Origin: Exobasidium rhododendri
Taxonomy: Eukaryota > Basidiomycota > Exobasidiomycetes > Exobasidiales > Exobasidiaceae
Assembly (NCBI GenBank): GCA_026210745.1
Contig: CP110630.1
Coordinates: 7,063,045 to 7,127,044 of the forward strand
Length of the DNA stretch: 64,000 nt
Reading direction: 5' to 3'
The notes under the pieces are model-generated. The model was given only the letters and a program-made list of their open reading frames with translations. It ran no database searches and was not told the origin of the DNA. Made by a program: the position numbers and the translations under genes. Numbering within the stretch: position 1 is the first letter of the stretch; the number at the start of each line of letters is the position of its first letter. Of this stretch, positions 9,845 through 59,039 are shown piece by piece.

Positions 9845-11444
9845 ATGATACTCTCGACTGTCGCGTCTTTGGTGAAGAGCACTGCGCGGACGCAGGATAG
9901 TCAGATGCTGCTTCTGTCTCGGTCTTATCATAGCAAACTTTTCCGAACAGCAGATGAGGCAATTGCGGACGTTCGTTCAGGACAGGTGCTGCTTTGCGGC
10001 GGATTTGGGCTCTGCGGAGTACCTAATACGCTCCTACACGCGCTGGAAAGGAAAGGGAAAGAGCAAGTCCTAAATCTTACCTGTGTCTCCAACAATGCTG
10101 GCCTGAAGGAGCATGGACTGGGCAGACTCCTCGGCAAGGGCCAGATCCAGCGTATGGTCTCTTCCTTCATCGGCGGTAATACGCAATTCGAACAGATGTA
10201 CTTACAAGGTCAGGTTGAACTTGAGATGGTACCTCAAGGAACGTTGGCAGAAAGAATCCGTGCGGGAGCAGCAGGTATCCCTGCTTTCTTCACACCCACA
10301 GGAGCGGACATCGACACGAGTCAGTTGCCCCTCAAGTACAAGGCTCGAGGACCAGTGTCAGCGAAAGAAACGCCCATCATAGAGAAGCTCCTGCCAGTCC
10401 CTTTCCTTCAGACGTTTTTCGGGAGACCTCACAAACTTGAGGCAGCAATCTACGGAGATGTGGCTTTCATCCGAGCTTACAAAGCAGACAAGCTTGGCAA
10501 TCTCGTCTTCAGGTGAGCAGGCAGAAGAATCGTTCACTAGACACCTAACTTACTCCTGGTGTTTCCACAGAAAGTCGGCGAACAACTTCAATGCTGTGAT
10601 GGCCAAGAATGCGAAGATGACGATTGTAGAAGCCGAAGAGATTGTCGAGATTGGTGATCTGGATCCCGCATGCATCCATGTCCCCTCGATCTATGTCGAC
10701 CGGATCATACAAAGCAAGCCGGAGAGGCTCCCCATTGAGAAGGTCACATTGAAAGCACCCACCACGAATTCCGACAGTGTTCCTGACGCAAAAAAGACGA
10801 CGATATGTAGAAGGGCTGCACAACTCTTGAACGACGGCGAATATGTGAACTTGGGCATAGGAATGCCGATGGCTGTACCAGATTTCCTCGATCCCTCGAA
10901 GAGCATCTACATACAGTCTGAGAATGGCTTACTCGGCATGGGCGAATATCCATCATCACAAGATCAAGTGGACGCCGATCTAATCAACGCGGGCAAAGAA
11001 ACAGTCACGCTCTCGGTAGGGGGTTCCTACTTTGACTCTGCAGAGAGTTTTGCCATGATTCGTGGGGGCCACCTCGATTGTTCGATGCTGGGGGTGATGC
11101 AAGTGTCTGCCGTTGGTGATCTGGCTAATTTCATCATACCGAATCGACTGATCAAGGGTATGGGCGGCGCTGCTGACCTTGTTGCTTCGCCTGATCAAAC
11201 ACGCATCATCGCCCTCACCGAACACAATGCTCGCGATGGCAGCCCAAAGATCGTCGAGACCTGCACGCTTCCCCTCACAGGAGCAAGGTGTGTCTCGATG
11301 ATTGTCACAGAGTTAGCCACCTTCGAAGTGGACCGCAGAGCACAAGGAAGTGGTCTGACACTAGTCGAGTTGGCACCGGGAGTCAGCCTGGAGGAGGTCA
11401 CGCAGAGGACAGGTGCTACATTCCAGGTTCAGATTCCCTCGTAG
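9845..11444 (+). CDS. succinyl-CoA:3-ketoacid CoA transferase
   Basis: Two exons, 9845..10512 and 10571..11444, split by a gtgagc...cag intron, give 513 residues with fused alpha and beta subunits, the normal SCOT length. The N terminus is rich in Ser, Arg and Lys with an RSYHSK segment typical of a mitochondrial targeting peptide. The glycine-rich CoA-binding region lies in the alpha half (GGFGLCGVP). The catalytic glutamate is Glu340 in SENGLLGMG. The family moves CoA from succinyl-CoA to acetoacetate or 3-oxoadipate. Next to carboxylate transporters and ring-degrading enzymes it could activate a 3-oxo acid made by the cluster, but housekeeping ketone metabolism is equally possible. Confidence 0.92.
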
Positions 11445-14924: not shown

Positions 14925-16568
14925 ATGGGGACCAGCTTCCAGCTCAGCAGCAGCGCTTTCGGAGCAGGACTGCTACTCGTCTTCCTGATCGTCTATATCG
15001 CTTATCCTGCAAAAAGGGCGATCAAGTCGCTTCCCCTACCTCCGGGTCCACCCAAGCTGCCTATCATCGGCAATCTACACCAGGCGCCTTCGCTAAACCC
15101 TTGGAGAGTGTATGACGAGTGGTCCAAGAAGTACGGCCCAGTGATGGCACTGCAGTACGGCAAGGACACATTGATAGTGCTCAGTACGCAACAGGCCGGA
15201 CGAGACCTGCTCGACAAGAAGAGCAATATCTACTCGTCTCGACCTCATCTTGTCATGGGAGAGAATGTCAGTCAGGGGATGAGGACGCTGTTGATGCCGT
15301 ATGGAGATCGTTGGAAGCGGCACATGAAGCTGCAACGTACGTATCTCGGTCCCACCGCCTCGAAGGGCTACCACCGTCTGCAGGGTGAGAAGTGATGCTG
15401 AGACATGCGCGTCCACCCTTTTCTTGGTTAATGACACACACCTTCTCTCTTTCTCGTTTCCCGCCCAGAGCTGGAAAGTCTGCAGCTCATGCTCGATATG
15501 TCGAAACACACGGAGGATGCAGTGTCCCAATTCCACCGATACTCGTCCAGCCTGATCTTTGCGTTAGGATATGGAAAGCGCCTGCCACGCGGCGACGAGA
15601 AGGAAGTTGCGGCGGTCGATCAGGTCATGGAGAATTTTCTATTGGCTGCTCGGGTGGGCACGTGGGTGATTGACGCCATCCCCATCCTCAACAGCCTGCC
15701 GACACTGGTCAATCCTTGGAAGCGGTGGGGAAATCGATGCCATAAGCACGAATCTGACCTGTACCGCAACAGCTACCGAGATGCGCTAAGCAGACCAGGA
15801 TACAATTGGAGCAAAGCAGCCCAAACCACTGCCAAGGATGACAAGGAGATGACGGAGCTGGACCTGGCGTACAACGTCGGGATACTGTACGAGGCGGGAT
15901 CCGACACGACGACGATGGCGCTGGAAGTGTTCACCATGGCCGTTGTGTGCAATCCCGAGGTCATGAAGCGAGCGCAGAAGGAAATAGATGAGGTGGTGGG
16001 GCGCCAGAGGATCCCCACGTTCGAAGACCAGGATCATCTCCCATATGTTCAGGCCCTGATCAAGGAGGTCCTGCGTTGGCGCCCAGTCACGGCCGGTGGA
16101 ATTCCCCATCTTGTCACCGAGGACGACGAATACAACGGCTACTTCATCCCCAAGGGGTCCATCATCATTCCCAATCACTGGGCCATGCATCGAGATCCTG
16201 TTCTGTTTCCCGAACCGGATCGCTTCAACCCCGAGCGATGGCTGTCAGACCCAGATCTAAAACACAACGCCTTTGGATTCGGACGGAGGCAGTGTGCCGG
16301 TCAGCATATCGCAAAAAACTCCCTCTTCATCAATGTGTCCCGCCTGTTGTGGTCGTTTGACTTCTCACACGCAGTAGCAACAAATGGCAGTCCCATTCCC
16401 ATCGACACATTAGCATTCACGCAGGGCTTCAACTCGCGTCCTCAGCCATTTGCGTACAAAATAAGGATTCGGGATGGGGCGCGAGCCAACTTGCTGGAGA
16501 GCATCTGGCAGGACACGGAAAAGGATATAACTGTCTTGCTGAACAAGGAGGCTGTTGTGGCCGCGTGA
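14925..16568 (+). CDS. cytochrome P450 monooxygenase (first)
   Basis: Two exons, 14925..15384 and 15469..16568, give 519 residues. An N-terminal membrane anchor (about residues 10-27) is followed by a proline hinge (LPPGPPKLP). The I-helix oxygen motif is AGSDTT, the K-helix ExxR is in KEVLRWRP, and the heme loop FGFGRRQCAG carries Cys429. I place the donor at 15385 because it continues the HRLQELES helix expected in fungal P450s; a donor-like gt at 15337 would delete about 16 residues. The enzyme sits in the ER membrane and uses a P450 reductase. As the first oxidative gene of the cluster it may hydroxylate the starting substrate. The CYP family cannot be assigned from the sequence alone. 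Confidence 0.9.
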
Positions 16569-17275
16569 CTCTTGTCGTTGTACATTTCTCCATCTGCTTT
16601 GACTGTCGCACGACGTTTCCTGAAACAGAAAATGTACATGCAGAATTCTACGTTTCCTTAAAAGGCGGTAGAACCGTCTCTGGCGGTCCGTACCGTGTTG
16701 AGATCTGAATACTGGGAGACGTCTTGCAGCATCTTCAGGAGATGTAGTGTCGATGTTGTCGAGATGGAACAGAGGCTAGTAACCTCACTATGACGGCAAA
16801 ACCCCGCAATCAGAGGGACAAGAGCAGCAGGAAGTACGGATTTGTGCTCGTAGTCGATTTCCTTCTCCCTCCTTGTGCACTGAAAGCACGACCTTCTGTC
16901 CCCATTCTCGACGGAGGCATGCAATCAGACGTGTATAGCGCCTATCAACCCCGACATGGGAAGATCTTCCCACCCCCACATTTCTCAGTGTGAATGATGC
17001 TATTCTTTCCCCGCGTTCCTTCCCCCCCACATAAATTTTGGCCTTTGAGAGATGCATTTGTCCGACAAGGCACCGGCTCCGAGGTTTCTGCCCTGGCCGC
17101 TCGTTGACAGGCGTCGGGTAAATAAGAAAACGCGTAGTTCCGATCCCAGGCACCAACTCCACGGCCTGGAGAGAGAAGAGATCTCATTTGTTCCTCCTCC
17201 CATGACGATATAACAAGGATATTGTGGCGCTACCTGGAGCCCGTTTACGATGCCCTCAACACTCTCTACACAATA
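16569..17275. other. intergenic region with MFS promoter
   Basis: About 700 bases with no coding sign. It holds the 3' end of the P450 gene and the promoter of the MFS gene, including a perfect copy of the cluster motif at 17058-17068. Confidence 0.5.
17058..17068 (+). promoter_or_regulatory. cluster motif site, MFS promoter
   Basis: The sequence TTGTCCGACAA is an 11-bp palindrome around a central C, about 210 bp before the MFS start. Its first nine bases are identical to sites at 23628, 25315 (opposite strand) and 29487. CGG-containing inverted sites are typical targets of Zn2Cys6 regulators. Confidence 0.5.
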
Positions 17276-19337
17276 ATGAGTACCTCCTTTGAAAAAGACA
17301 GAGAGCTGACAGACGTTCCTCGACTGGAATTGGATCACAAAGATGTCGTGTCCATTGACGAGCACGGTGAGGCTGCCGCCGATTACGAGCCTGAATTGCA
17401 TTGGCGTACGTGGATGGTCGAATTCGCCGCCATCTTTATTTGGTTCGGCATCAACTAGTGAGTGACGTTCGCCCTTCAGCTTGTGAGCACATATCTTCGG
17501 CAAGCGTCTGACTTTTACTCCACAGCGGAATCTCCTCCACGGGATTTTGGCTCACTCCCACGCTGGAAAAGATTGGAGGAACCGTTCCTGGGATCGGGCT
17601 CTGGTTTGCAGAGGGTTGCCTTGTATCGCAGTGAGCCTTTCCAGCGCCGAGTATATTATCCTCCTTGACAGACCGACTGATAACACACTCTTCACTTTGA
17701 CACAGAGTCGCACTGACACCGATCTTTGGCCTCGTCAGCGACTTTTCACCCACCATTCGAAAGTGGACGGCCATCGGTCTGTGTATCGTAGGTTCTGTCG
17801 GATTGTTTGTCGCGGGATCAGCTCATCATCTCAGCCCACAAGGAATCGTCGGCGTCTGCCTGTACGGTGTCTCGGTCATCGCATACGGTCCTGTTGCTGC
17901 GATCATTGCCGATGTGTTCCCACGGAGGATGCGCGGTGTTGCACAAGGTATTCTCTATGCTTGTGGTGTCGGTCTTAGTGGCTTCCTGGCTGATCTCGGC
18001 GGAGGCGGTCTGGTGAAGTACGTCTCGAACAACAACGGATGGCGCTGGAACCTGTACATGGCCGCCATCTTCGAGCTGACGGGCTGCGCACTCCTCGCTG
18101 TCTTCTATCAACCACTCCCCGTGAAGCAGAAGCAGGGGGACCCCACACACTGGCAGAAACTGATTAACTTCGACTGGGTCGGCATCGTACTATTCTGTGC
18201 GGCCATCGTGCCGATTATGATTGCTCTCGTATGGGGAAATTCGACGTTTCCGTGGAGTTCTCCCGCTTGCATCTCGACGATCAGCATCGGCTGCGGCTTC
18301 CTGCTCCTCTTCGTTGGACATCAGACATTCCTCAAGAAGGACGGCATCTTCAACCATCGCCTCTTCCGCAACCGCAACTTTGCACTCAGTCTGGTCGGAA
18401 TCTTCGTCGAAGGTGAGTGTAGATCCAACCACCAACTATGACGAGATGGCTAGTAACTCCTCACACCCCTCATCACTTCCTGCAGGAGTGACATATGTTA
18501 CCTTGAACAACTTCTTAGCACAGCAGGTCGGCACTTTGTACACTTCAGACCCTGTCCTGCTCGGACTGCACTTTGGTGTCTTGCTGTTGTGCAGTGCGAC
18601 CATGTGTGTGGTCTGGGGCTACTACTCCAAGCGATACCGCGACGTCAAGGTGCCTCTCGTCTGGGGCTACATTGGCTTCACAGCTGCCGCCGCTGGATTC
18701 AGTCAACTACGACCGTTCAGGGCATCCAATGCCAAAGCAGCCTACGGTCTGGCAGCCTTGATTGGCTTCAGCTTTGGAGGTCCACAAGGACTTATTCTTA
18801 CAACGACACAGCTCTCTGTTACGTCTGACCTGACCGGGATCGCCTCCAGCCTTAACATGGCCGCACGTTCGCTTGGAGGCGCTCTTGGATCATCGATTGC
18901 AAGCGCCATCTTCTCTGCAAAGCTCACTACTTACCTTCCCGTGTACACTGCTCGATTCGCTTCTGCTGCGGGTGTGTCTGCATCGGTACTGCCAGATGTA
19001 ATAGCCGCTGTTGCAAAGGAAGGAGCCGCGCTCAAGTCCTTCCCTGGTGTCACGGATGCGCAATTGCAAGCTGCCATCGTTGGCTACCTCGAAGCGTATG
19101 CTATTTCTTTCTCTTACATCTACTACTCGAGTGAGTGTGTTTCCCTCTCTCTCGCGTCCCAACACAAGACCTTTCTGCTGACTTCATTTTCTCCTCTTCC
19201 TCGTTACAGTCATCCCCTGGACTGCTACCGCTGCTCTCCTGCTGCTCTTCCTCAGACCGATGAAGGAGGAGATGAACTGGCACACCGATCGGCCAGTAGA
19301 AAAGGCTCTGCTGGAAGATGAAGAGCAGTCTATATAG
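17276..19337 (+). CDS. MFS transporter, TRI12/siderophore-type (DHA2-like)
   Basis: Five exons (17276..17457, 17526..17630, 17706..18412, 18486..19130, 19210..19337) give 588 residues. The N-terminal tail is acidic and cytoplasmic; about 12-14 helices follow. The loop with DVFPRRMRGVAQG matches the fungal trichothecene-efflux and siderophore transporter branch. I start at 17276; an upstream in-frame start at 17222 would add 18 residues. The protein should sit in the plasma membrane and either import the cluster substrate or export a product. The nearby motif at 17058 links its control to the Zn2Cys6 regulator (inference). Confidence 0.88.
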
Positions 19338-19672
19338 TGTTTACCCCGTTCCTCACCCTCTTTCTATGTCTGCGTTCTTCTCAGCTGCACTCCTGCACAT
19401 GCAAAAGCCCCCTCTCCGTCTGTATATAGTGTCACCGCGGTCCACATCTGAAGATTCGTAACATTATTGAATAGCGTGGCACTAGTTGCGTGCTTTCACT
19501 TTGACATCCTACATTTCGGGCAATTGCACTTTTCCTCGGTCAAATTGTGAAAAGTCAAAGGTCGAGGGCAGTCCGAAAAGCTTAAATGGATAAGGGGAGG
19601 AACGACAGCGAGAAATCTCTGCAGGCCACACTCACTTTCTCTCCACCTCTCTCATATCGATCTAGATTCATC
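19338..19672. other. promoter region of dienelactone hydrolase gene
   Basis: About 335 non-coding bases. A degenerate relative of the cluster motif (CGGTCAAATTG) lies near 19537, and CAATTG near 19524. Confidence 0.4.
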
Positions 19673-20922
19673 ATGCCTACCAAGATATCCTCGTGCTGCT
19701 TGAGCGGCCATCTGCATTCCGGTTCACCCCAGGGGAGCGAGACCAAGGTAGCCGGACTAGACGCCTATGTGACAGGAGACGAGCAAGAGCAGAGGGTGGT
19801 GCTCTTCATTACGGTACGATGCGGTAGTAGTAGTTGCTAGAGTAAGGGGAGACATGCAGCTGATCCCAGACCTGCTCTTCTTTCGTGTCAAAAGGACATC
19901 TTCGGATTCAAGTTGAAGGTGAAATTATTTCCTTGGAGCTTCCCTCGAAAGTGCTTCGATTCGCTCACTCTTACTCCTTTGCCCCAGAACGTGCGACTAC
20001 TGGCGGATGAGTATGCCAAGACGGGTCACTTCAAGGTCGTCGTGCCGGACTTCTTTGATGGTGGGTGCAGGAAAAGATAGTCTTCCATCTTCCTCGATAC
20101 TGACTAACCACCAACTATAATATACAGGCGACCACATCACTACGGATCACATGAAGACATTGACTCCGCTACACTCTGACGCATCTAGAAGTGACGAGGA
20201 AAAAGGAAGAGAAATGCAGGCTGCCTTTGCAGACGTCGGACCTTGGCTTGAGCGACACAACGATGACGTTGTTGGCCCCAAGATTGCACGGACAGTAGTA
20301 GCATTGAGTCAGGGGAGTGACAAGCTGGCCGTGCTTGGCTTCTGCTGGGGCGGCAGGCAGGCAATTCTGCTCGCAAATGGACAGCATTCGATTCGGTGAG
20401 GAACAGAAGAATCACAATGCATAGGACGTAATACACTAAAATCTGACTCTGACTCTTGATGTACGATCGATCTACTACTCGCAGCGCCATCGTGGCCAAT
20501 CATCCTTCCTACACCGAGTTTCCTGCTACTTTTGAAGCCATACAGAAGCCGGTCCTGATCCAGGTGGGAAACGATGATAGCGTGAGTGTGCCGAAGAGGT
20601 GCATGAACGAGTATGACTGCATGTCCCCACAACTATGTGCATCCCCGACTTTCTAGATGTTCCCATTTGATCAAGTGAAGCAAGTCAAGGACGTGCTCTT
20701 TGGCAAGAAGAAAGACGCAAAGGTGGTCGTCTACCCGGGCGCGTGAGTTGCCCTCCTTGGCTAGTCTCAAGGGATACGCTACTCTGACCGACTCTTGCAT
20801 CCACCCACAGCGTGCACGGCTTCTCCATTCGAAGCGATCAGAACGACAAGGCAGAAGTGCAGCTCAAAGAAGAGGCCACCCTGACTGCAATCAACTTTCT
20901 CACCGAGACGCTCACGGGATGA
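19673..20922 (+). CDS. dienelactone hydrolase family protein
   Basis: Seven exons (19673..19813, 19895..19918, 19988..20060, 20128..20395, 20485..20581, 20657..20742, 20811..20922) give 266 residues, normal for the family. The cysteine nucleophile Cys152 lies in GFCWGG, the acid is Asp199 or Asp200 in GNDDS, and the histidine is His232 in AVHGF: the Cys-Asp-His triad of dienelactone hydrolases. The second exon is 24 nt (DIFGFKLK), and that segment belongs to the conserved DIFG loop, so the microexon is real. Members open lactones formed in aromatic or chloroaromatic breakdown. The last 11 bases overlap the stop-end of the convergent regulator gene. Confidence 0.9.
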
Positions 20923-23558
20923 GGATACTCTCGCTGTTCGTCTCATTGAGGAGGGATCCATAGCTGCTCTGCCAACTGATCCAACTTGCCAGGTCGCCTT
21001 CGTCCATCGGCAGACTCAAAGGCATGTCCCAAAAACTGTCGTGTAGCTTGCTTAGCGGATTCTCGTGTAACGGTGCTGCCATTCTCTGCTGATGCTCTAG
21101 ACTGTTGCTGCTGTTGCTGCCAGCGCGAGAGAGTAGCTCTGTGAGACTGGGTGTGTGCGCCCGTGTCGGCGCTCTTGTCGGTGCTCTGGATTGCTGTCTG
21201 CTTGCGATGATCTCCTCTACTTGGCTGTGGTGCCGAAGGTCCCGCTTGGTGAGCTCGGATAAGGAGTTGAGCACCTGTTGGTATTGGAAGCTGCAGCGAT
21301 ACGTCTCCGAGACATGCTCCAGCCAATAGATGCACTGAACAGTGTTCAGGACTGTCAGTATGAGCCTTTCCTGCCCGTAGACTTCTGTACTCCGACTCAC
21401 TTTGTGCAGCGACGTCTGCGCCTTTGTGGCCAACGCGGCGTCTTTGCTGGTGGAGCTGATCAGGCAATGCATGATGCCTGCCTGGAATATCCTGACGCAA
21501 TCCCACACAGTAAGATATGATCAGTCTTTGCACGCAACACACGAGAAAAAGGGGGACGTGTGCCCACTCACAGAAAGATGATCGAGTGCGGACAACGGTA
21601 GATTCCAAGCGTCTCGTCGAGGGAAGTGGCGATGCGGACAATCTCATCGGCAGCTTCTGTGCAGAGCGTGTAGGAAGTCTTCTCACCGTTAGACGTCTTA
21701 TACACCGCCTCGACAGAGATAAAGGGACGATACAGGATCAGCCGTGTCGTGTGATACCAAAGCACAGTCATCAGCGTGTTGGTGGACGCCAATCGAAGCG
21801 ACTTGACCCGGACGAGAATGTCGATCGACTGACTGGCCCATGCTTCCAGACATGCATTCAGATTCACCGATGCCGCCAAGGAAACACGCTTGTCCGAGTA
21901 CTTTCTCGACGAGTAGATGTCTTCCTTGATCCTCTCGACGATTGTCAGCAGTTTGATCCAGCCAATGAAGGTGGTGATGCTGTGCACTCGAATGTTCGCA
22001 AAATCGTCTCGCTTCTCGGGTATGATCGCCTGGGCATCTTGCATCCAGTAGCCAAACTCGTCCGACTCGAGATGCGACGGGTAGTCGGCCTCCTGTGGGA
22101 TTCATCAGTCAAGGTGAGCATCCTCTTTCCTCTCATCATTCAGAAACGGCCACTCACCACCTCGGTGCTCCTCATCATGCTGGGTCGACCAAGAAGCAGC
22201 GACACGGATTGATCCATGGCATAGCAGATCCACACGGTTCGAAGCTTCTCCTGCTCGACGCTGGCCGAAGTCGATGCGGCTACGCGGGAAGGCTGATGCA
22301 GCTGCATGTCAAACGCTATCCGCACTGCCATTCCCGAGAACAGCCAGCCCTGACGAGTGTAACCCTGTGCCAGCTGTTAGTCGATGTCGTGAGCTCATTA
22401 TACACAGCATGATCACTCTTGCCACACTTGATGAGGCGACCCACCTCTCTCAATGCCAGCAGGACGAGTGCCTGGACAGTGTGCACGCTTGAATCGAGGT
22501 CCGTCAGATCTAATGCCGCCCTTGCACGACTGTAGTAGATCTCGCCCAGTCTGGTCGCCGAGGGTACGCTCCCAACCTCATTTGGCACGCTGCTCAGCTG
22601 TCGTGTGACGTCGATGCGACTGACGAGGGCGAGGATGGCGTAGTGAAGTGCCGGTGAGTCGCGCTCCACCCTGGCCTCGTCAAAGCACGGTCGGTATACT
22701 GTCGGGTCGTCATCAAGCAGAAGCATCAGTCGGCAGTCTCCATGATTGGGATGTGTACTCACAGATCGGCCACACAGGGTGCACAAAGGTCCAGTAGAGC
22801 TTGTAGAGCAACGTTTGCGTGGCTGGCTGATACGCTACGTCGTGCAGCTCCATCACATTGTCAATGTCCAGCATCATGGTGTACATCTCGCTGGAGTGGT
22901 CACCGATCTCGATGGCGCGTGAAGTACTGCTCGGACCCATGTTCGGGAGAAGGAGGGAGGAGTAGTGGTTCACATGAAGACCCTCTGTTTGCGTGAGTCG
23001 TTGCGCCAAGATTGTATCGTGAGATTCGGCTATGCTAGATGGCGTCCGTTGTATGAGGCTGTCGTCTGCTTCGTCTTGGTGGGCATGGTGGCTCTGATGA
23101 TCGTAGTCCGGCGGGCTGTATATCGGGTAGACTGGTGCATCGGCTGACTCTCCCGCCCCATCAGCTGTCGCACTTTCCCGCGAGGAAGTCCCCTTGCGCA
23201 CTTTGGGTCCCCTGAAGAGACAGTCGCATCACTATTCTGTTGAGACTGGGCCACTCGGCTCTTTACGTGCACACTCACCTCCTCTCAAGCGCAGAGTAGT
23301 GGCATGTCATATTCAACCGGCGGCATGTATCACATTCTGCGCCCCCTGAGCACTGTTTACCCCCAGCATGACAGGCACATCAGCGATGAATGCGCACCTT
23401 CCAGCAGTCGAGAGCGGACGACTCGCCTTGGTCTTTCTCTTTGCGCACACTGTGCAGGTCTTGGACACCAGGGTTGTGCTGATCCGGCGTCGTGGCATAG
23501 CGGACAACAGCCTCGCAGCACTGCCGCTGCTGCTGCTGCTCGTGCCACCGTGTGTCAT
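20912..23558 (-). CDS. Zn2Cys6 fungal-specific transcription factor
   Basis: Eight exons (23427..23558, 23279..23352, 22763..23211, 22445..22698, 22158..22364, 21572..22092, 21401..21491, 20912..21334) give 716 residues. The zinc cluster is Cys35-x2-Cys-x6-Cys-x5-Cys-x2-Cys-x6-Cys, split after Lys44 by an intron that starts gcgagt, a GC-AG intron. A linker with ERRGPK follows, then the fungal_trans domain (about residues 210-500) and a Ser-rich tail. I start at the Met at 23558; in-frame Mets at 23600 and 23498 are possible. It is the only regulator in the cluster and has a motif copy about 70 bp upstream, so it may control its own gene and its neighbours. It overlaps the dienelactone hydrolase gene tail to tail. 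Confidence 0.88.
23353..23426 (-). other. GC-AG intron in the zinc-cluster exon
   Basis: The exon ends in AAG and the intron begins gcgagt and ends aaacag. Removal brings the third and fourth cluster cysteines into the exact Zn2Cys6 spacing. No GT donor nearby does so in frame. Confidence 0.7.
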
Positions 23559-23627
23559 GGTGCGGTGGCCTTTCGTGGGGGGTTGGGGGACAAGACACAA
23601 ACTTTTTACACGGGCGCTGCTTTCCTT

Positions 23628-23638
23628 TTGTCCGACGC
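23628..23638 (+). promoter_or_regulatory. cluster motif site, regulator promoter
   Basis: TTGTCCGACGC, identical over 11 bases to 29487-29497 and to the complement of 25315-25325. It lies about 70 bp upstream of the chosen regulator start. Confidence 0.5.
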
Positions 23639-23876
23639 AGAGGAAGCTCTATCTTTACTATTCAACATCGAGGACGGCACTTTGTATTGAGGTCATATCG
23701 TATTATTATCATTATTACTGGCACGATTGAACGCGCGTTTTGCACTAACATTTTTCATCGAACTGCCTTTCACTTCTTCTCGTGTTGTTACGGTGCTGCC
23801 GTCTCCTGGAGCAGTGTGGCCCGTCACGCAATGGAGGAAGCATATCAAGCTACAGCACTATATACTTGGCATACAA

Positions 23877-25131
23877 TCAACGGATGTGATGACCACCATC
23901 GGCTGGACAAGCGGGGATGAGCAGGTGTCCTACGCTATCACTCGTATACATCGTCACACTCACGACCCCAGTCCGAGCCCGTCATAAAGGAAGCGCCATC
24001 ACTTGCGGTGAAGTAGATGCCTGCTGCGATCTCGTCAGGATGGGCAAAGCGATTCCTGTGCGGATGCAGTAGAGGTCAGCACTTCTATCAGTATACTTAG
24101 CTAGACTTGCTGCTACTTACATTGGCTGGTCGGTCAGGTAAATCTTCTTGGCCATCTCGAGATCAAAGCCGGGCGTCTGAAGGACTGCACGATGGGAGGT
24201 AGTGTAAACAGGATGTGAGCGTGCGATGCTAGCAGGTCTTTTTGCATGATACCTGTATGATACATACGAGGAGTCATCGTCAAGCCCGGGCTGACAGTGT
24301 TGATCCGGATATCGTGTTCTGCATTCTCCAACGCCAGTGCTCGACATCTGCAGGGAAGAATTTGTCAGGGACAGAGCTGCCTGCTGTAGAGTCAAACAGG
24401 TACGCACAGGCCAATGACACCGTGCTTGGCGGCACCTGAAAAAAGCAAGTGTCAGAGACATAGTATACCACCCTTCTTCTCATGCCGCCATCGCTCACAA
24501 TAGGCCGCCAGATGCGACTTGCCCTCGCTGCCCAATGACGACGATACGATAGTCAGGGAGCCACGTTGCAGGACTGGCTTCCAACTTGGTCCTCGATGAC
24601 TGTCGTCTCGTAGGACTCTGGGTTCCTGCTTTCGAAATTGGATGATCATGGCTTTGGCAACGCGCCAAGCTCCCTTGAGGTCCACCCGCATGATGGCGTG
24701 GTAGTCGCTGTCTTGCAGCATGTGGCCTTCCACTGGGCGGTTTGAGAGGTCAGCTCATGCTTTGGTATCCCTTTCTCGATAGTAAAAACGCACCAGTGGG
24801 ACCAGTGATGCCCGCTGTACTGATGGCGAAATCGATACGACCATGCAGAGCGACCACCTGCTGAACGAGACTGCTCAAAGACGCATCGCTGGTCACGTCC
24901 ACTTGTATGAAGGACACCTTTCCTCCAAACGTGTTCGCCGTAAGATCAGCATTGACGACCGTACAACCTGCTCGCAAGAATCGTCGTACACAGGACGCTC
25001 CAATGCCGGAAGAGCCTCCGACCTGCAAGAAGAAGAAAGAAGACAACTCATCAGCCCAGCGCGTGTCACGTCCGCTCCTCTTTCGTATAGCTGCTCACAA
25101 TGACTGCTATGAGAGAGTTACTCTTGGTCAT
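23877..25131 (-). CDS. short-chain dehydrogenase/reductase 1
   Basis: Eight exons (25099..25131, 24794..25022, 24499..24732, 24408..24435, 24268..24347, 24121..24184, 23964..24055, 23877..23902) give 261 residues. The Rossmann motif GGSSGIG follows the first splice; the catalytic Ser is in IVSSSLG and the active-site Tyr and Lys in AAYCAAKHG, with SPG and the usual C-terminal loop after it. I splice the last exon because it yields the conserved GSDWxxDGG ending; reading through instead ends at 23938 with the same total length and without that motif. A segment with RDDS...PVLQRGSL before the catalytic Ser is shared with the second SDR. The gene is divergent from the flavin monooxygenase and probably oxidises an alcohol intermediate. 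Confidence 0.85.
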
Positions 25132-25439
25132 GGTGGGCGCGTATGAGTGGGAGGGAGACTGAGAGAAGAGTCTGCTACCTTTCATTGAAGCTTACACAGC
25201 GAGCGCTCTGTCAAGACGACGCCGGTCAGGTCGCTAGCTCAGTCTGTGTGTGTGCGACATTTTTCCCCTCTCGGCTCCGGCAGCTTCGGGTCGGTCAAAG
25301 TCTAATTCGCAGCCGCGTCGGACAATTGACAATTAGGCTCTTTGCTGCGCTCTTTCAGGAACGCCTTCGGTCGCTCGACTCGTTTAAAGGAGGGGCTCCA
25401 CTTCCTTGTCGGACGTAAGGCCCCATCCATTACTTCGCC
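25132..25439. promoter_or_regulatory. divergent promoter between SDR1 and FMO
   Basis: A 308-bp spacer between two starts. It contains the cluster motif at 25315-25325, a CAATTG next to it, and a degenerate variant (GGTCGGTCAAA) near 25290. Confidence 0.55.
25315..25325 (-). promoter_or_regulatory. cluster motif site, SDR1/FMO promoter
   Basis: Plus strand GCGTCGGACAA, the complement of TTGTCCGACGC. With the next three bases it forms a 14-mer (GCGTCGGACAATTG) whose exact complement occurs at 29484-29497. Confidence 0.55.
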
Positions 25440-27971
25440 ATGCCTGTACCATCGTACACAACGTCCAAGATCGTGTCCACGATTGGCCATCTTCCTGGGT
25501 CTCTGCCATCTCAGCCCATTGCCGAGACGGTAGATCCATGTGATGTGGCTGCTCAAGTGGTCGAGAAGCTCAATGCAGGCACAGTAGAGGAAGGACTGTT
25601 CACCAAAGACGCTTTCTGGCGAGATCAGTTCACTCTGACACAGAACATGCGTACCTTCCACTCGTCCACCAGCATCGTCTCCGCATGGAACGATGTCGCA
25701 TCGCACTTTCGTCCGCGTTCCTTCCGGTTGAGCCCGGGCTCCTCGATGCGCTACCCGACATGGATAACGGCTACATTTACATTCGAAAGCAGCACGACAC
25801 CCGTGGCGGAATGTTCGGGCATCCTGTAGTGAGTACCCGTGACAGCTTTATGTATCCAGCCCTCGTAAAATTATGCCAATCTCTGCCTCGGCATCATCAG
25901 CTTGGTGCTTGTGGAGGAAGAATGGAAGATCTGGCTGTTCCTGACATGCCTGGAAGATTTCCAAGGGCACAAAGGCGTGGATTTGCGCACGGTAGACACA
26001 GACGTCCTTAGAGCTACTCCCGAATATCTGCAGCCGGTGCCGAGCCATATCATTAAGGGTGTCAATGGAGTCAACGGCGCTCCAAGGGCCAATGGGAGTA
26101 GTGGCGAGGTCAAGAAAAGTAATGGGACTAACGGTGTCAATGGCAGTAACGGACATCACACGAGGGAGGACTCGAAAGATCCTAGTGAGGGCGTCTACGA
26201 TGTCGCTATAGTAGGAGGTGGACAAGCCGGCTTAGGAACAGCAGGTTGGTGCAAGAGCTATGGACTGAAGTACGTCGTACTCGAACGCAACAGCAAGATT
26301 GGCGAGAACTGGACAAAGAGATACGACAGCGCCAAGCTGCATACATCGCATCGCTTCAGTGAGTGGCGTGTGTAGATAGTGTATATAGTACTACAATGTG
26401 GAGCTGATCATCTCACACATGCAGACGACCTTCCTTTTGGACCGACGTTCACAAAGGACGACCCTGACTGGCTCACCACGAAAGCCCTGTCAGACGGTTA
26501 TCGCAAGTACGTCGATGCGTTTGGAATCGTGAGTGTTGGGCTATTCTTTGTCGATTACCTCATGCTCAAAGCTTGACCGTTCATCAGAACGTGTGGACAT
26601 CGTCAACACTGGTACAACCTGCAGCCTATGAGCAAGACACAAAGACGTGGACGTTGCAGGTGGAGCGGGAGGGAAGCCCCGTCACTCTCCGCGCCTCTCA
26701 CATCGTCCTCGCCAATGGACTGCACGGCGCCGTACCGTTCACCCCTTCCTACCCCAACGTGGAGCACTATCGCGGCACGTCGATACACAGTGCAAACTAC
26801 AAGAATTGCAAGTCGTTTGCCGGCAAGTCAGGCATCGTAGTCGGCACCGCAAACACGGGACACGATGTGGCACAGGACATGTACAATGCTCAACTCAGTC
26901 AAGTCACTATGGTGCAGAGGGGGTGAGTGCGTTTGGAGTCCTATCGAGTGCGCATCTCCTCTGACAAACATTTCTCATCAGCGCTACCTATGTAGTCCCA
27001 CGGGAGCACTTTGTATCGCTCTTCGACCTGACATGGAACGACCAGATCCCGTCTGAGCTGTCTGATCGCTTCTTCTGGAGCACGCCTACCGCAATCAGTC
27101 GACTGATGACAAGCGCTTATCTCCATCCGTTGTCAGCCGAAGTCCCGTGAGTGCTCCACTTCAGTCACTAATCTGCTCATGTTGACCCTTCTCTCAATCA
27201 CCTCTCCTACAGCGAGCGCTGGAAGGCACTCGAAAACGTCGGCTTCAACGTCGACATACAGGGCGACTTCGTAGATCACCTTCTCGTTCGATTCGGAGGT
27301 CACTACATGTGCGTTGTCGAGGCTTTTCCTCCCTTTGTGACATCTCATTATGCTCACACACGTCTCATTCTTCATCCTTCATACAGGGACTGCGGAACGT
27401 CGCGAATCATTGCAGATGGACACATCAAGGTAAAGGGTCAAAGTGCAATCTCTGGCTACACTGCTACTGGCCTCAAGTTCGCCGATGGGACTACGTTGGA
27501 CGCCGATCTGATCGTTTGGTGTACCGGGTGAGTTCCGCCTCTCGCTAAATCGTTCCTGCGAAAGCGCCCATCTCTGACACATATCCTTCCACAGCTTTGA
27601 AGAGGGAATCAGTGAAGCTGTGCGTCCGATCCTTGGCGAGAAGGTGATGAAGCAGTTGAAGCCATACGTGCGTAGTGTCGCCAGAGTGTATACGTCTGTG
27701 GTCATCCTTGCTGATCTGTTTTATCTGTGACCATCAGTGGGGCGTGGATGAGGAGGGTGAGGTGAAGGGTGCCTTTGTTCCTTCTGGCGTGGAGCATTGC
27801 TGGCTAGCTGGAGGCGGCTGCTCTCATGCAAGGTGAGGCACAGACTCAGCATGTCTTGTGTAATAAGCGTGTGTGTTCTGACTTTTTCTGTGCAGGTACT
27901 TTACTCGGTTCATCGCATTGCAAATCCAGGCCGAGAAGTTGGGTATACCGATGGATCCGTACTACACATAG
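25440..27971 (+). CDS. flavin-containing monooxygenase (FMO/Baeyer-Villiger type)
   Basis: Ten exons (25440..25828, 25901..26358, 26425..26528, 26588..26922, 26982..27146, 27213..27308, 27387..27527, 27595..27667, 27738..27832, 27896..27971) give 643 residues. Residues 1-190 form an N-terminal domain seen in fungal FMO-like proteins; a low-complexity linker rich in Asn, Gly and Val (about 195-225) follows. FAD binding is in VGGGQAGLG near residue 235, the FMO/BVMO-like segment in YRGTSIHSANY, and NADPH binding in VVGTANTG. The C terminus has WLAGGGCSHARYFTRF. The enzyme inserts one oxygen atom, either into a ketone or onto a heteroatom. Sharing a promoter with an SDR suggests alcohol-to-ketone oxidation followed by ester formation (inference). 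Confidence 0.88.
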
Positions 27972-28116
27972 AAGTGTCTTCCCTTCTCTTTGTACTGGAT
28001 CCGTACTACACGTAGATGTCTCTCACTCTCCCATGTACCTGAAATAGACATCATCTTATCGAGGCTCTCCTATGTATCTGATACAAATATCATCTTGTCA
28101 ATCTCAATATGGGTTG

Positions 28117-29316
28117 CTAGTGCGCACTCCAGCCAGCATCTAGATACATGTTTGTGCCTGTGACAAAAGAGGCTTCATCGGAACAGAGAAAGTAACACGC
28201 AGATGCAATCTCATCTGGATGGGCAAAACGCTTGATTGCCTGCTGAGCGAGGTACTGCTGGACGTTGGCAAAGTCAAAGCCTTCTGCGAGCATGATAGGC
28301 GTGTAGACGCAGCCCTGTTTGCGATGTAGCAAGAGAAGAGGATTGTAGTAGGAGAAGAGGCTCAGTCAGCCTCTTCCTCAAGTCGCCTCCTCTCATCGTC
28401 GTATTCATCACTCACAGGGCTGATCGTATTGATGCGAATGCAATGCTCTACATTCTCGAGGCAGAATGTTTTCGAGATGCCGTTGACCTGCTTACCTTTC
28501 AGTCTCTAGAACTCTTTCTAGCGCTGTGATCACTTTGACAAAACTACTCACCCCGTGCTTTGCGGCCACTGTAGGACGAGAAAGAAGAAATCGTGATTAG
28601 AGTTAGCCACAGATTCTCTCTCTTCCTGCCAGCCTGCACGTACCGTAGCCACCCATATAGACGGATGCGTACATGCCGTTGACCGACGCAATGTTGACCA
28701 GACTGCCACGTTGACGGACTGGTTGCAAGCCTAGGTCGCTGTCGTCTCGAAGCTGTCTCGGCTTTTGTCCTCTCCAGTGAGTGACGAGCGCTTTGGTAAG
28801 GTAGAAGGTCCCGCTGAGGTCGATGTCCATGACTTTCTGCCAGTCTGCGCGTCGAATCTCATGGGCCAAGGACGTCGGCCCGCCGATTCCTGCACCTGCT
28901 ATGTGCATTACATCAAGAGTCAGTATGTCCTCATCACCGAACATTGTCTACATTCAACCCACAGTGCACGGCAAAGTCGAGTCGGCCGTAGTATGCTGAG
29001 GCGCTTTCGACGAGCGCCTGCACACTATCTTCGTCTGCGATGTCAACAGCGATGAAGATGCACTGCGCACCATTCGAGTTGAGCCGCTTCTGGAGCTCCT
29101 TGCCCAGCTTCTCGTTTCGATCGGCGATGATCACCTTTGGATGCCCCCGCCTCACAAACTCTTCCACTGTCGCCTTGCCGATGCCACTAGCGCCGCCGCT
29201 CTTCAGTAATACGATTCAGGTCAGCTAATATTCCCCTGCTCTGTCTCACTGGCCACACTCACCACCAACGTCACCAGGTCAGCTTGATCAACATTCAGAT
29301 ACGGAGAGTCTACCAT
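28117..29316 (-). CDS. short-chain dehydrogenase/reductase 2
   Basis: Six exons (29263..29316, 28963..29200, 28644..28898, 28552..28568, 28416..28487, 28117..28314) give 277 residues. The Rossmann motif SGGASGIG starts right after the first splice; the catalytic Ser lies in NIASVNG, Tyr and Lys in GGYVAAKHG, then INTISPG, and the C-terminal VTGTNMYLDAGW. The fourth exon is 17 nt and carries AAKHG, so the active-site Lys depends on a microexon. The insertion with RDDS and PVRQRGSL and several intron positions match SDR1, so the two are paralogues. The 3' end of the gene lies 145 bp from the convergent FMO gene. It is divergent from the CocE-type hydrolase. Confidence 0.88.
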
Positions 29317-29618
29317 GATGTATGTCGAAGCTGCGCAGCGTGAAGGTCTCCTTCGTCTCGGCACTTGATTGGCTTTAACGTTCCTCCAACCTGATCCAGT
29401 CGGATAATTGCATTGATTTATGACTTTGTATACTCACCGAAGCCATCGGCACGCGAGGAATAAGCTTTTGCACAGAAAGTGGGCAATTGTCCGACGCGTT
29501 GTTCCTCTCCCACGCATGCCTCTCTTTCTTATTCTACCGAAGGGCTTATATATCATAGCAATATGTGTCGCAGCGATCTGCCTTTCGTTCGCGCAAATCT
29601 AAGGACATCATCTCACAA
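29317..29618. promoter_or_regulatory. divergent promoter between SDR2 and CocE-type gene
   Basis: A 302-bp spacer. It holds the cluster motif at 29487-29497 and a one-base variant (GTCGGATAA) at 29399-29407, followed by ATTG as at 25315. Confidence 0.55.
29487..29497 (+). promoter_or_regulatory. cluster motif site, SDR2/CocE promoter
   Basis: TTGTCCGACGC, about 120 bp before the hydrolase start and 170 bp from the SDR2 start. Preceded by CAA, giving the 14-mer shared in inverse orientation with the SDR1/FMO promoter. Confidence 0.55.
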
Positions 29619-32036
29619 ATGGCACCCACAAAGGTAGACGGCGACTACGCCAAGAGTACAGGAGGCTTCGACAACGACTTTTCCTTTGCTGTGTCGAAAG
29701 CGCCCCCTTTTGAAAATTATGGCTTCCCCATGATCACCGAGTTCAAAGTCGCCTTTTGTGAACTCGAGAAGCCCGACGTTCATCCGGAGAAGACGCAGTA
29801 CCAGGGCAGTCCAAAGACAAGCACGGTTGTGCTGCCGGCAGGGCATGTCAAGGCAGAAGGATTCGGAAGGAAGCCACTCCCTTGCGACATGCACTACGAT
29901 CGAAACATCCAGATTGCCATGCGAGACGGAACAAAGATCTATGTCGACGTCTTCCGACCCGTGACGACGGACATTGTACCGACAATCATCGCCTGGTCGC
30001 CGTATGGAAAGACAGGAACAGGAGACATGACCTAGTGAGCCTGCGCATTGCAGTGAGGAGGGACTTGTGCCACGCCCTTCTGACGCTGATTTATTCGTCG
30101 CAGCGACAAGACCGGGCCGTACAACTGCGGCATCAGCCCGGACAGTGTCTCTGGCTACCATCAGTTTGAGGCGCCTGATCCCGCCGGTGAGTACTGAGTG
30201 TGAGAGCAGTATCTTGCATGTCGACTCACCCTCGCTTCTTCACACTCACTTCAGAGTGGACACATCGCGGCTATGCGGTGATCAATGTCGACGCCCGTGG
30301 TGCATTCGACTCGGAGGGTCACATGATGCGCTGGGGTCCACAGGAAGCGCTCGATATATATGACACGACACAGTGGGCCGTCGAGCAGGACTGGAGCAAC
30401 AAAGCGGTGACAATGTCGGGCAACTCGTGGCTCGCTGTGGCACAAATTAACGCCGCCGCTCGATGTGCTCATCCTGCATTGAAGTGCATCGCCCCGTGGG
30501 AGGGCCATTCTGTGGGTACACTATGCCCAGTCCGATGGTTCACATTGCTATTGCTAACTCATGTATATACTCAGGACCACTACAAGGACGTCATGGTGCG
30601 GGGCGGCATTCCTCAGGTGGCGTTTGGCAATTGGATGCAAAGCACGCTGGTCGGACGCAACAAGATGGAAGACACGGCAGCGATGGCGAAACTGCATCCG
30701 TTCCACGACAAGTACTGGAAGACGAAAGCGATTCCCGTGCAGGACATCACTGTTCCCATGTATCTCGTAGCTTCCTATTCGTCCTTCATCCACACCGCTG
30801 GATCATTGCGAACGTGGAAGGAGGCAAAGAGCAAGGAAAAGTGGATCCGCTTCCACAATGCGCAGGAGTGGTCCGACTTGTACACGCCGTGAGTGGTATA
30901 GAAGATCAACGCCGTGATCCTTCTTACTTACACCAATAATAGAGCAAACGTGGACGACCTGCAGAAGTTCTACGACTACTACTTGAAAGGGATCGACAAC
31001 GGGTGGAATGCGACTGCGCCTGTCCGCCTCTCCCTCATCTCCTTTCACGGCAAGGACAAAGATGTAGTGAACCGAGCCGAAGTAGCGTATCCCTTGACCA
31101 GACAGAAGCTCGTCTCGTTCCATCTCGACTCCTCTTCACTGTCCATGTCATCGTCGCAAGTCACTGCTGCTGCACTTGCGTCCTACGAGAGTCACCACCT
31201 CGTTGACTGCCTCGACTTTGCATGGAAGGCAGACAGGTGTGAGTGAAGGAAGAAATGCGGAGTACGACATACCCGCTCACCCCTCTTTAATACTACTGCA
31301 GACACCGAGATAGCAGGATACCCCGTCGTGAAGCTCTGGGTGTCGTGCCAGGAGAGTGACGACATGGACATACGCGTGCAGCTGCGCAAGAAGGACTTCA
31401 ACGGCAACCTCCTCATGCACAAGAACTTTGTCAAGGAGGAAGGCGGGGACAAGGTGCTGACGTGCCTTGGCCAAGACGAAGACATCTACGACTTTGAGCA
31501 GGTCAACATTCACCACTTCTTAGGCTCAACCGGGATGCTGCGAGCGTCTCATGCTGCTACGTACAACGAGGCAAAGTCGACGGTCAACGAACCATTCTAC
31601 GACCATGTGAGTGTGTCCCTGGTGGTATTCGTTATGTAGAGGACAGGTGCTGAATATATGAACAAACGCAGGACCGGTCGGTGAGCATCCCTCCTGGCAC
31701 CGTCATTTCCCTGCGAATCGGATTCTGGCCGACTGGAATGACATTGGATGCTGGGGAAAGCTTGGTCCTTCGTGTGGCGGGACACTCGTTGGTCTTGCCA
31801 GAGGTGAGATGTAGAGTCTGCACTGTGTAGATCTGAGCTGATTTTGTTCTTGCATCGCAGTTCAAGGTAATGACGCCCGATCGACCTACAGACTTCAACA
31901 AGGGCCGTCATACGGTGAGCGAGAAGAGTGATCGACGTCCCACTTCTCTCTTATACTTACTCACACTTTATATCTGAAGGTCCACACTGGCGGCCAGTAC
32001 GACTCACAGCTGATCGTTCCCGTCGTAAACTACTGA
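29619..32036 (+). CDS. CocE/NonD-type (X-Pro dipeptidyl-peptidase S15 family) hydrolase
   Basis: Nine exons (29619..30034, 30104..30186, 30255..30511, 30575..30888, 30943..31238, 31302..31606, 31672..31803, 31861..31914, 31980..32036) give 637 residues. The core reads IAMRDGTKIYVDVFRP, then WSPYGK, RGYAVINVDARG and the nucleophile motif GNSWLA with Ser224. A C-terminal jelly-roll (from about residue 400) carries the SIPPGTV and GG-QYDSQL segments typical of CocE-like esterases. No signal peptide is seen, so it is probably cytosolic. In this cluster it could cleave the ester made by the monooxygenase; amide or peptide substrates remain possible. Confidence 0.88.
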
Positions 32037-33092: not shown

Positions 33093-34256
33093 ATGAGTTT
33101 CCGCTGTGAATCGAACAATGTGACGCTGATCGGCAGCTGTTGCACACAACCCTACAACTCAACATCCGATCCTTCCGCTGACTATTTTTCGTGCAATTTT
33201 CCCGACGAACAGGGCATCTCCAGCTGCCGAATCAATGTCACCGCTTTCGCAGGTTCCAATGCAGGAATTAGATGCATCATGCCAGCAGCAAACGCAAACA
33301 GTTCCAGACGGACCAAGCCCAATTCCAAGCTCCACTGGGCAACGTATCTGCTAGCGACGGTGCTGCTCTTCATGCTCGTCAACGTCGCAGGCGCAGTGAA
33401 CAACATGGCTGCTATATCGCCAGATGGACGGTGTGGATGCTCTACTTGCGACCCTTCCAAGCTTCTAGTCGCAATGACGGTAGGCTACTACTCGGACATC
33501 ACTTGCCAGTCTCATCTGAAGACAGTGCAATACGCTGCCTTCAGTGACTCACCCCCTGGTTGTGCGTCTTGCAGTGCCGCCAAATTGCCATCCCTTCCGA
33601 CTGTGTATGCGAAGATCCTCTCTGACAACGGCAAAGTGCAGACTGTCTTTTCTTGCGATCAGGTGTGTCCGCCAGGGAAGATCAATTCACCACTTGCCAC
33701 TCTCGACGCAGGAAATGGTGCCTGTGTTCAGCTGATGGCACTCAAAGGAAATGAAGGGGTGGCGGTGTACAACGCTGGTGGATCTCCAGATCCACGCCTC
33801 TCTTTGAAAGTGGCAAAGAGTCTTTCTGCTAGATCGGAAAAGGAGAAAATAACCTGCAAGGGCTTCAAGATAGACTCGCAAGTAAATACATACACCGCTG
33901 GCATCGTCGTTTCTCCCACGGTGAATTGTCAGAATTCAGCCACCCCGTGCATCATCTCCAAGTCGGACCAACACACAACATCCGTGACAACATCCTACTC
34001 TGTAACAGCAGGAGACGACGTGTTCGGAATAAAGGCAGAAGCCACCTTTGGCCAGGACTATACTGATTCGGAAGCTACCACGATTCAAGAGTCAGTATCG
34101 GTGCCAATCAATCAGGAAGGCTACTTGGCCGTGTACTCCGCCGCCACTTTCTTCACCGGTACGTACATAGGCTGCAAAGGCGGAGATCAGGCGGGAACTG
34201 CTTTAGTGCCGAAGAAGAATGGCGTAATCTACCAGTTAGTCCTCACGAACGAGTGA
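33093..34256 (+). CDS. Cys-rich tandem family protein, copy 1
   Basis: A single-exon 387-residue protein of a family I do not recognise. It starts at 33093 (MSFRCES) to match the CES start of its paralogues; an in-frame Met two codons upstream is possible. The N-terminal domain has six Cys in the pattern C-x10-CC-x16-C-x10-C-x15-C, with N-glycosylation sequons. A hydrophobic segment (about residues 81-101) ending in VAGA looks like a membrane or signal sequence placed internally. A second Cys-rich domain follows (about 108-235), then a basic linker with dibasic-poor RSEKEK, then a C-terminal Ser/Thr-rich beta-like domain beginning ITCKGF (about 252-387). Function unknown; a surface or secreted role is inferred. 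Confidence 0.75.
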   Translation: MSFRCESNNVTLIGSCCTQPYNSTSDPSADYFSCNFPDEQGISSCRINVTAFAGSNAGIRCIMPAANANSSRRTKPNSKLHWATYLLATVLLFMLVNVAGAVNNMAAISPDGRCGCSTCDPSKLLVAMTVGYYSDITCQSHLKTVQYAAFSDSPPGCASCSAAKLPSLPTVYAKILSDNGKVQTVFSCDQVCPPGKINSPLATLDAGNGACVQLMALKGNEGVAVYNAGGSPDPRLSLKVAKSLSARSEKEKITCKGFKIDSQVNTYTAGIVVSPTVNCQNSATPCIISKSDQHTTSVTTSYSVTAGDDVFGIKAEATFGQDYTDSEATTIQESVSVPINQEGYLAVYSAATFFTGTYIGCKGGDQAGTALVPKKNGVIYQLVLTNE

Positions 34257-35673
34257 GTATCAGATCTTCACCATCTTCCTTCTTCATTATCCCTTCTCTC
34301 TCGTGTCTCCTTTGCCCTTGCTCTACTGTCTCCCTACTTGATCTTATCTCGATCATCCCTTGTTATTCCCTCCCCCAAACTCTTCACAATTCATATCGCT
34401 ACAGCACACTGTCTTTGAATCTGATAGCTGCAAAGAAGTCCGCCCTCTCGCTTCGCAACTTCCTCTCTTCTCCACTTGCGCCCTTCAGACTCTTCTCGCT
34501 CTTTAGCTATCCTCCTTTTTTCGTCTTGCCATCTCTTCTTCTTTTTGGGAGACTACCTTTACTCACATGTTAGCGATGTAAATCGGCGTAGTACACTATC
34601 AGACGTTTTCTACATAAATATACGGAATACTAGGGTAACCATGCTGACGGACGTGATTCCCCTTATTTTGAGAAGTATTGCAGTGCGACTAGGGAGGCCA
34701 CTTTACGCTTCATCGACACTTATTTCAGAGACTCGTCCATGGCGAACTTCTGCACAGACTGACGTGAATATGTAATTATTGCAGTCGCTCTGAACTCGCG
34801 CGTGGCCAGACTACAGGTCTATGGTCGTCTTTCAGTCCAGCTTACATCGACGTGGTTAATGCGCGACAGCATGGTCAAAGCAATGGTCTGACAATGTGTC
34901 GTCCGGGAACATGCAGCCTGCCTACTATGTCATCGACGCAAGGGAGATTAAGGCGGCCACACCTGAGACAGTGCATTGGTAGCACGCGAATTAGAGTTTA
35001 GCACATTTGAGCTGATGTCATAGCGGGCATTTCTTTTACTCGGTGTTTTTCTCTTTTTTTAATCTTCCTCTGCTGTCGTGCCGTAGTTCGGTGAGAGTAA
35101 TATTACCTACCCCGCTCCACTTCCCGCAGGGAGAGCTGATACTTCGAGGTAAGTCGAGCTATGGCTCTGTACTAGCTGGGATCTTATCTGTGTACTGACC
35201 GCATGGAAACTTGCATCATTGATAGGTGAGACGGCAATATGTCATGGAGATTGCCACCATACCTCTTGTGAACATATAGACTAAGTGGATGCACCGACCG
35301 CATGCAAATTTTGGCTTCGATGACGACCGAGTACACTGCGCGAGTGAGAGTGGGGAGAACGTGACAAGCAGTGCTGTGATACTTTCTTTCTGAGCAGTTA
35401 TTTGAGTTTGAACCGCATGGGACAGCTATCAATATCTGACGACGAGAAGGGTGCAAGCGATAGCCGAGTAGCATCCGAGAAGCATGCTGCTGCTATCGCT
35501 ATGCATCTCCTATAGGCTGCGTCTTTCGTATGACCACAATCTAGTAGTCAGACATCTATATAAAGATACGGAAAGAAGCGACCTCTTCTCATTTTTTTTC
35601 CCATCTCAACATCCCCTCATCTTCCGAACAAGCACACCGACCGCTCTCATCCTTTCGCATTCTTCCTTCCATC
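34257..35673. other. intergenic region within the tandem array
   Basis: A C/T-rich 3' tract (about 34260-34560), no coding sign, then the second copy of the upstream block at 35001-35080. A TATATAAA box lies at about 35558-35566, roughly 110 bp before the second copy's start. Confidence 0.5.
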
Positions 35674-55826: not shown

Positions 55827-56051
55827 CCTCACGCCATTTCTGTCTCTGACGTGTATGTTTATTATGTGTACAATTTAATGAATGACGTGTACTAGTATGA
55901 CGTGTATTATTAATGGCATGTACTAGTTAATGACGTGTATACTTAGTGCGCGTACTAACGATATACTTATGATATACACTATGTACTTAGTCAAACACGC
56001 TAAGTATAAGGGGATACGTAAAGAGTTAGATTACGCTAAGTATAAAGAAGA
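55827..56051. repeat. AT-rich convergent spacer with short repeats
   Basis: Four TGACGTGTA words at about 17-35 bp spacing, and two ACGCTAAGTATAA words. It may hold the terminators of both convergent genes. Confidence 0.5.
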
Positions 56052-58075: not shown

Positions 58076-58104
58076 TTTGAGCTACACAAATAGGGAATAT
58101 AATA

Positions 58105-59025: not shown

Positions 59026-59039
59026 ACTAATCTCATCGC

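Follow-up and report, generated by a model that had tools for sequence, protein, structure and literature searches.

Genes of the cluster and a word shared by their promoters

The window analyzed here, 64 kb long, forms the end of a contig of 7.127 Mb from Exobasidium rhododendri CBS 101457 (genome of 17.65 Mb in four contigs) and is closed by a TTAGGG telomere array. The fungus is a leaf parasite of Rhododendron; PMC13010171 attributes its genome to Li et al. 2023 and also names genomes of the sister species E. cylindrosporum, E. phylloplanum, E. maculosum and E. vaccinii. The window carries a gene cluster with a Zn2Cys6 regulator gene in its middle, and four promoters of the cluster share a word, TTGTCCGAC. 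The evidence for a cluster-specific cis-element in these promoters is good, and the element is probably the binding site of the local regulator. Gene models were obtained from our own spliced predictions combined with Pfam; they are approximate, were made without transcripts, and several of their ends were set by hand.

14925..16568, forward strand: cytochrome P450; spliced model with Pfam match, adjoining the cluster
17276..19337, forward strand: MFS transporter; spliced model with Pfam match
19673..20922, forward strand: dienelactone hydrolase family protein; start read by eye, only the last (3′) exons modelled and scanned
20912..23558, reverse strand: Zn2Cys6 regulator; PF00172 and PF04082, N-terminus spliced by hand
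23877..25131, reverse strand: short-chain dehydrogenase SDR1; approximate model, start trimmed by hand
25440..27971, forward strand: flavin monooxygenase FMO; model, deposited in a shorter form as CBS101457_002957
28117..29316, reverse strand: short-chain dehydrogenase SDR2; approximate model
29619..32036, forward strand: CocE/NonD-type hydrolase (CocE); model, deposited in a shorter form as CBS101457_002959

CBS101457_002957 (492 amino acids) is 100% identical to the FMO model over 73% of the model, and CBS101457_002959 (378 amino acids) is 94% identical to the CocE model over 56%. SDR1 and SDR2 are paralogues (36% identity).

Exact copies of TTGTCCGAC in the window are found at 17058, 23628 and 29487 on the forward strand and at 25317-25325 on the reverse strand. 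All four lie outside the gene models, each upstream of one or two start codons: 209 nucleotides (nt) before the ATG of the MFS gene, 69 nt before that of the regulator, 185 nt before SDR1 and 114 nt before FMO for the reverse-strand site, and 170 nt before SDR2 and 123 nt before CocE for the site at 29487. Together with the inexact copies, the sites are the following.

17055..17066, forward strand: CATTTGTCCGAC, in the MFS promoter, within the near-palindrome TTGTCCGACAA
23625..23636, forward strand: CTTTTGTCCGAC, in the regulator promoter, proposed autoregulatory site
25317..25328, reverse strand: CAATTGTCCGAC, between the divergent SDR1 and FMO
25406..25414, forward strand: second, weaker copy TTGTCGGAC, 25 nt before the FMO ATG; read on the reverse strand it scores 11.5, with 0.04 equally good places expected per promoter length
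29399..29410, reverse strand: CAATTATCCGAC, between the divergent SDR2 and CocE
29484..29495, forward strand: CAATTGTCCGAC, between the divergent SDR2 and CocE
19511..19526, reverse strand: possible degenerate copy CAATTGCCCGAAATGT, before the dienelactone hydrolase gene; 0.05 equally good places expected by chance

The original prediction had located the four exact sites as we find them and had placed them all between genes; its 25315 is the start of the 11-mer footprint. It spoke of an 11-base motif in four promoters, which slightly overstates the case: the 11-mer TTGTCCGACGC is common to three, and the fourth, that of the MFS gene, matches over 9 bases. Two of the sites are identical over 15 bases (CAATTGTCCGACGCG), one more than the 14 first claimed. 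The one-base variant proposed at 29399 is real and has a high score (17.7). As for the looser relatives, the one at 25290 exists, but about 0.18 places as good are expected per promoter length, and the one near 19537 scores below its neighbor at 19511.

Five sites, at five places in four promoters, define the 12-base consensus CWWTTRTCCGAC, which on the opposite strand reads GTCGGAYAAWWG, a single CGG with fixed flanks. Among the six upstream regions of the neighborhood (2,712 nt), GTCGGACAA is the sole 9-mer common to four, and at each length from 8 to 15 the words present in most regions are built around this core. Both divergent promoters carry two outward-facing copies, 80 nt apart in one case (25325-25406) and 79 nt in the other (29407-29487). 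Such near-equal spacing has a chance of 0.0135 under free positions; the observation is post hoc and is not relied on.

Rarity of the word and the sharing expected by chance

The 9-mer occurs 164 times genome-wide as compared with 122 for the reversed control, and the 11-mer 11 times as compared with 8, three of the 11 copies lying within 5.9 kb in this cluster. The 12-base CWWTTRTCCGAC has 17 copies in 17.65 Mb against 7 for its reversed control, and 5 of the 17 belong to the cluster. In line with the original prediction, the 11-mer is thus not a word that is common genome-wide and no more frequent here. The eight 11-mers outside the cluster comprise five in predicted coding sequence (two of them in weak models) and three beyond it, and none of the eight is found within 1 kb upstream of a predicted start. 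The other twelve 12-mers are distributed between predicted coding sequence (2), open frames of at least 200 amino acids (5) and neither (5). For ten 1-kb pieces, codon statistics were too weak to call coding, and open-frame length was used instead. Because the other copies lie mostly in genes or open frames and none of the eight 11-mers precedes a predicted start within 1 kb, the word is not a general promoter element.

In the window, TTGTCCGAC with at most one mismatch is seen 27 times, whereas 100 shuffles gave an expectation of 13.45 and no more than 20. As the word had been picked once the window was read, the null tests took the best of all words. For the main null, 64 predicted intergenic pieces (81,010 nt) were taken from elsewhere in this genome, with subtelomeres excluded, and each of 10,000 draws combined six distinct, length-matched pieces; because the draws overlap and sample a limited portion of the genome, the figures are rough. 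Of these draws, 31 had a 9-mer shared by at least four of the six pieces (4 with simple repeats set aside), 37 an 11-mer shared by at least three (12 with simple repeats set aside), and 137 a 15-mer shared by at least two (41). The nested combination of 9-mer and 11-mer at these levels appeared in 2 of the 10,000 draws, both with low-complexity simple repeats, and the nested 9-mer, 11-mer and 15-mer all together in none. In dinucleotide shuffles of the six regions, the corresponding counts per 3,000 were 1 for the 9-mer, 1 for the 11-mer, 12 for the 15-mer and 0 for the nested words. An earlier null, which included subtelomeric repeats and in which the same piece could be drawn twice, had given 7 nested cases and 503 shared complex 15-mers per 3,000; its replacement by the main null moved the result in favor of the finding. 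In both nulls, the regulator upstream region (23559-23959) takes in the last SDR1 intron and exon as modelled. The background comes partly from intergenic pieces of the 10 kb around two CocE relatives.

A model built from six sites, in which the 25406 row is out of register, gave the five consensus sites as the top five places of the whole window (16.9 to 21.0; next 12.5), in a scan that is circular, the model having been built from those very sites; the five-site model omits 25406. The fair test is that of leave-one-promoter-out models, which were scored against 258,900 background bases, a conservative choice since these include loci selected for bearing the 11-mer. The main site of every held-out promoter was recovered, with 0.0027 and 0.0015 false hits expected per promoter for the MFS gene and the regulator, respectively, and no false hits in 517,080 scored positions for both divergent promoters. 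The second SDR2/CocE site scores only 10.4 once that promoter is left out of the model. The 15-base match between the divergent promoters, which is in opposite orientation, is their sole significant similarity (7e-5; next 0.27).

The candidate binder and competing explanations

The regulator gene is positioned between the MFS and dienelactone hydrolase genes on one side and SDR1 and FMO on the other. With a GC-AG intron spliced by hand, its product contains CTVCAKRKTKCSGGAECDTCRRLNMTC, a zinc cluster with the six canonical cysteines (CX2CX6CX5CX2CX6C). PF00172 is matched at 24.8 bits (cut-off 21) and PF04082 (Fungal_trans) at 76.1 bits (cut-off 23). In an alignment with GAL4, the regulator has Arg and Lys at two GAL4 positions that presumably contact CGG. 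A genome search for Zn2Cys6 stretches missed this gene because the intron splits the domain; it is likely the only such factor in the window.

Since the word has a single CGG with extended flanks, a Zn2Cys6 gene lies in the cluster and a site stands before that very gene, the local factor most likely binds the word. Hence, CWWTTRTCCGAC is probably the binding site of the regulator encoded at 20912-23558, a judgement that bears on the site and its local binder and not on the direction of control. Self-regulation would fit the CGG core, the canonical domain and the site 69 nt before the ATG. What the analysis establishes is the shared word, its rarity elsewhere and its position in promoters; the identity of the binder, activation as the direction of control, the inducer and the feedback are inferences. 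In the proposed mechanism, an inducer, probably a pathway substrate, would be present, and the regulator at its sites would activate the MFS transporter gene and the divergent pairs SDR1/FMO and SDR2/CocE. It would also activate its own gene, and this positive feedback would switch the cluster on together. The regulon would cover the MFS gene, the regulator, SDR1/FMO and SDR2/CocE, perhaps the dienelactone hydrolase gene and apparently not the P450 gene. An autoregulated, cluster-specific regulon is therefore likely, and is the best reading. The autoregulated regulon of the original prediction is thus partly supported: the shared element stands on firm ground, and the regulator would fit the roles of binder and self-regulator.

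Several observations weigh against this interpretation. A search with the regulator protein returned two distant matches, in Amylocarpus and Ilyonectria (24 and 26% identity; 7,997 best word-sharing candidates scored), so that the specificity of the regulator is considered without a characterized relative to inform it. The Zn2Cys6 search gave 53 other stretches in the genome and none in the window, the nearest at C1:7018782, 44 kb outside. Only four of the six upstream regions are clearly covered: the dienelactone hydrolase site is weak, and before the P450 gene, which may or may not belong to the cluster, no copy exceeds chance (0.69 expected), so that coverage of the clustered genes seems incomplete. 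In addition, many family members bind paired triplets and the site here has one CGG.

The 53 stretches also bear on another explanation, in which the shared site is genuine but is bound by another factor, of the Zn2Cys6 or some other class, with the local gene as one of its targets. Neither the flanks CAATTG nor the near-palindrome TTGTCSGACAA is class-specific, which would allow it. However, a factor with wider duties should have sites at other promoters, and the 12 12-mers outside the cluster, compared with 7 in all for the reversed control, include 7 inside predicted genes or open frames of at least 200 amino acids. We consider this explanation unlikely. If the local factor is the binder, it could also keep its own gene and the cluster repressed in the absence of an inducer, which is not exclusive of an autoregulated regulon. 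The sites at 23628 and 25406 are just 69 and 25 nt before start codons and could hinder initiation, but the remaining ones are 82 to 209 nt upstream, and most known PF04082 family members in catabolic or biosynthetic clusters are activators; repression is thus rather doubtful. Coincidence, or a duplication leftover without regulatory function, is very improbable: the word was picked from the window itself and the paralogous SDR genes could have brought promoters of shared descent, but the all-word null gave 2 in 10,000 and each promoter was predicted from the others. An origin of the shared 15-mer in promoter duplication was rejected, because the match runs in inverted orientation with respect to the SDR genes, no other similarity between the promoters is significant and the surrounding sequence does not align.

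Under the autoregulated regulon, the target genes may be read as a pathway. Solved relatives of FMO include Baeyer-Villiger enzymes (phenylacetone monooxygenase, cyclohexanone monooxygenase), the best match being the FAD-dependent oxidoreductase 8acs. The combination of FMO, two dehydrogenases and a CocE-type esterase suggests a sequence from alcohol to ketone, ester and acid. Among the 94 proteins found with FMO, the best full-length one outside its own genome is from Zymoseptoria tritici (48% identity); the named fungal relatives that we recognized are mostly ascomycetes, and lateral transfer is worth asking about. A second copy of the cluster elsewhere in the genome was considered and rejected, as FMO and CocE have only distant relatives there.

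A few remote targets may exist among the five remaining 12-mer places, the sole lead being C1:256307. There, a stretch that resembles an intradiol ring-cleavage dioxygenase, with an apparently interrupted frame, is followed after about 100 nt by CAATTGTCCGAC (C1:255800-256800; translation read by eye). Taken with the dienelactone hydrolase, the CoA transferase encoded 3.5 kb and the amidohydrolase encoded 6.3 kb upstream of the P450 gene, FMO, SDR and the CocE-type esterase, this stretch raises the idea of a dispersed regulon for aromatic-ketone catabolism, with which the Rhododendron parasite would use or detoxify host phenolics and in which a monomeric zinc-cluster protein would read an unusually long word in paired copies 79-80 nt apart. 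We hold such an extension to be very unlikely. A second regulon at C3:4781192 and C3:4784437, where two 12-mers stand 3.2 kb apart beside a paralogous Zn2Cys6 gene, was rejected, as both copies are in predicted coding sequence. The same region (C3:4778800-4788799) encodes several predicted proteins of similar layout next to that gene, some with apparent signal peptides as judged by eye, and looks like a small tandem family.

Neighboring features and relation to known systems

On the side of the P450 gene, an Amidohydro_2 gene (7655-8620) and a CoA transferase gene (10226-11444) possibly belong to the same catabolic neighborhood; the best motif-like place between them, at 9727, scores 11.2 and ranks ninth in the window. 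On the telomere side, three tandem paralogues (33093-39921) are 50-58% identical, two of them matching DUF6060, and 10 kb separate the cluster from an open frame for a DDE_Tnp_4 transposase (42094-43053). Another MFS gene and another P450 gene, the latter 34% identical to the first, lie together at 44819-49454. Further on, a convergent gene pair without Pfam match (694 and 402 amino acids, 53742-57260) is a conserved subtelomeric pair: of the four other chromosome ends examined, three carry it, with 83-98% and 99-100% protein identity. The ranges 58089-62898 and 63615-64000 hold subtelomeric tandem repeats, whose units include some of 68, 253 and 58 bases, and the TTAGGG array.

When the DNA-binding domain alone is compared with solved structures, the zinc cluster aligns over all six cysteines with those of GAL4, LAC9 and PUT3 (E 0.0005 to 0.002). 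The sites of these three are CGG...CCG pairs; within 23 bases around the exact sites here, a single CCG is present, except at 25317, which reads CCG-N3-CGG. Among the basidiomycetes, Ustilago maydis belongs to the same subphylum, Ustilaginomycotina, and its regulator Rua1 is a C2H2-type protein, unlike the regulator here. According to the available part of the source, the regulator of the ustilagic acid cluster is likewise encoded in the cluster and controls all its genes, whereas that cluster makes a glycolipid and its genes are different (PMC10098057).

A closer parallel in kind is TerR of the Aspergillus terreus terrein cluster, also a Zn2Cys6 cluster regulator, for which, in the portion of the article available, a CGG word was found in silico in the promoters of all but three genes (PMC4360782). 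The same portion describes TerR as predominantly a monomer on one CGG half-site, with a consensus that has a T before CGG, as here; such a factor can therefore act through one half-site (PMC4360782). In contrast, the TerR sites TCGGHHWYHCGGH are direct CGG repeats with a 5-base spacer, as given in that portion (PMC4360782). Their flanks differ from those here. A CGG-N5-CGG direct repeat is present in none of our four exact sites, as judged from the letters by eye.

Among the matches listed for a literature search with the letters TCGGACAA, the titles were unrelated. No description of this regulon was found among the matches listed in open-licence literature on Exobasidium, Zn2Cys6 regulators or similar clusters, seen mostly as titles and abstract starts. 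A cluster switched by its own regulator is a well-known kind of system, ordinary in fungi, and this example is probably uncharted. Regulator, site and target genes form a specific, testable prediction in a plant-parasitic basidiomycete of a little-studied group. Even while the chemistry of the pathway is still to be worked out, the site could indicate its member genes, and sister genomes exist.

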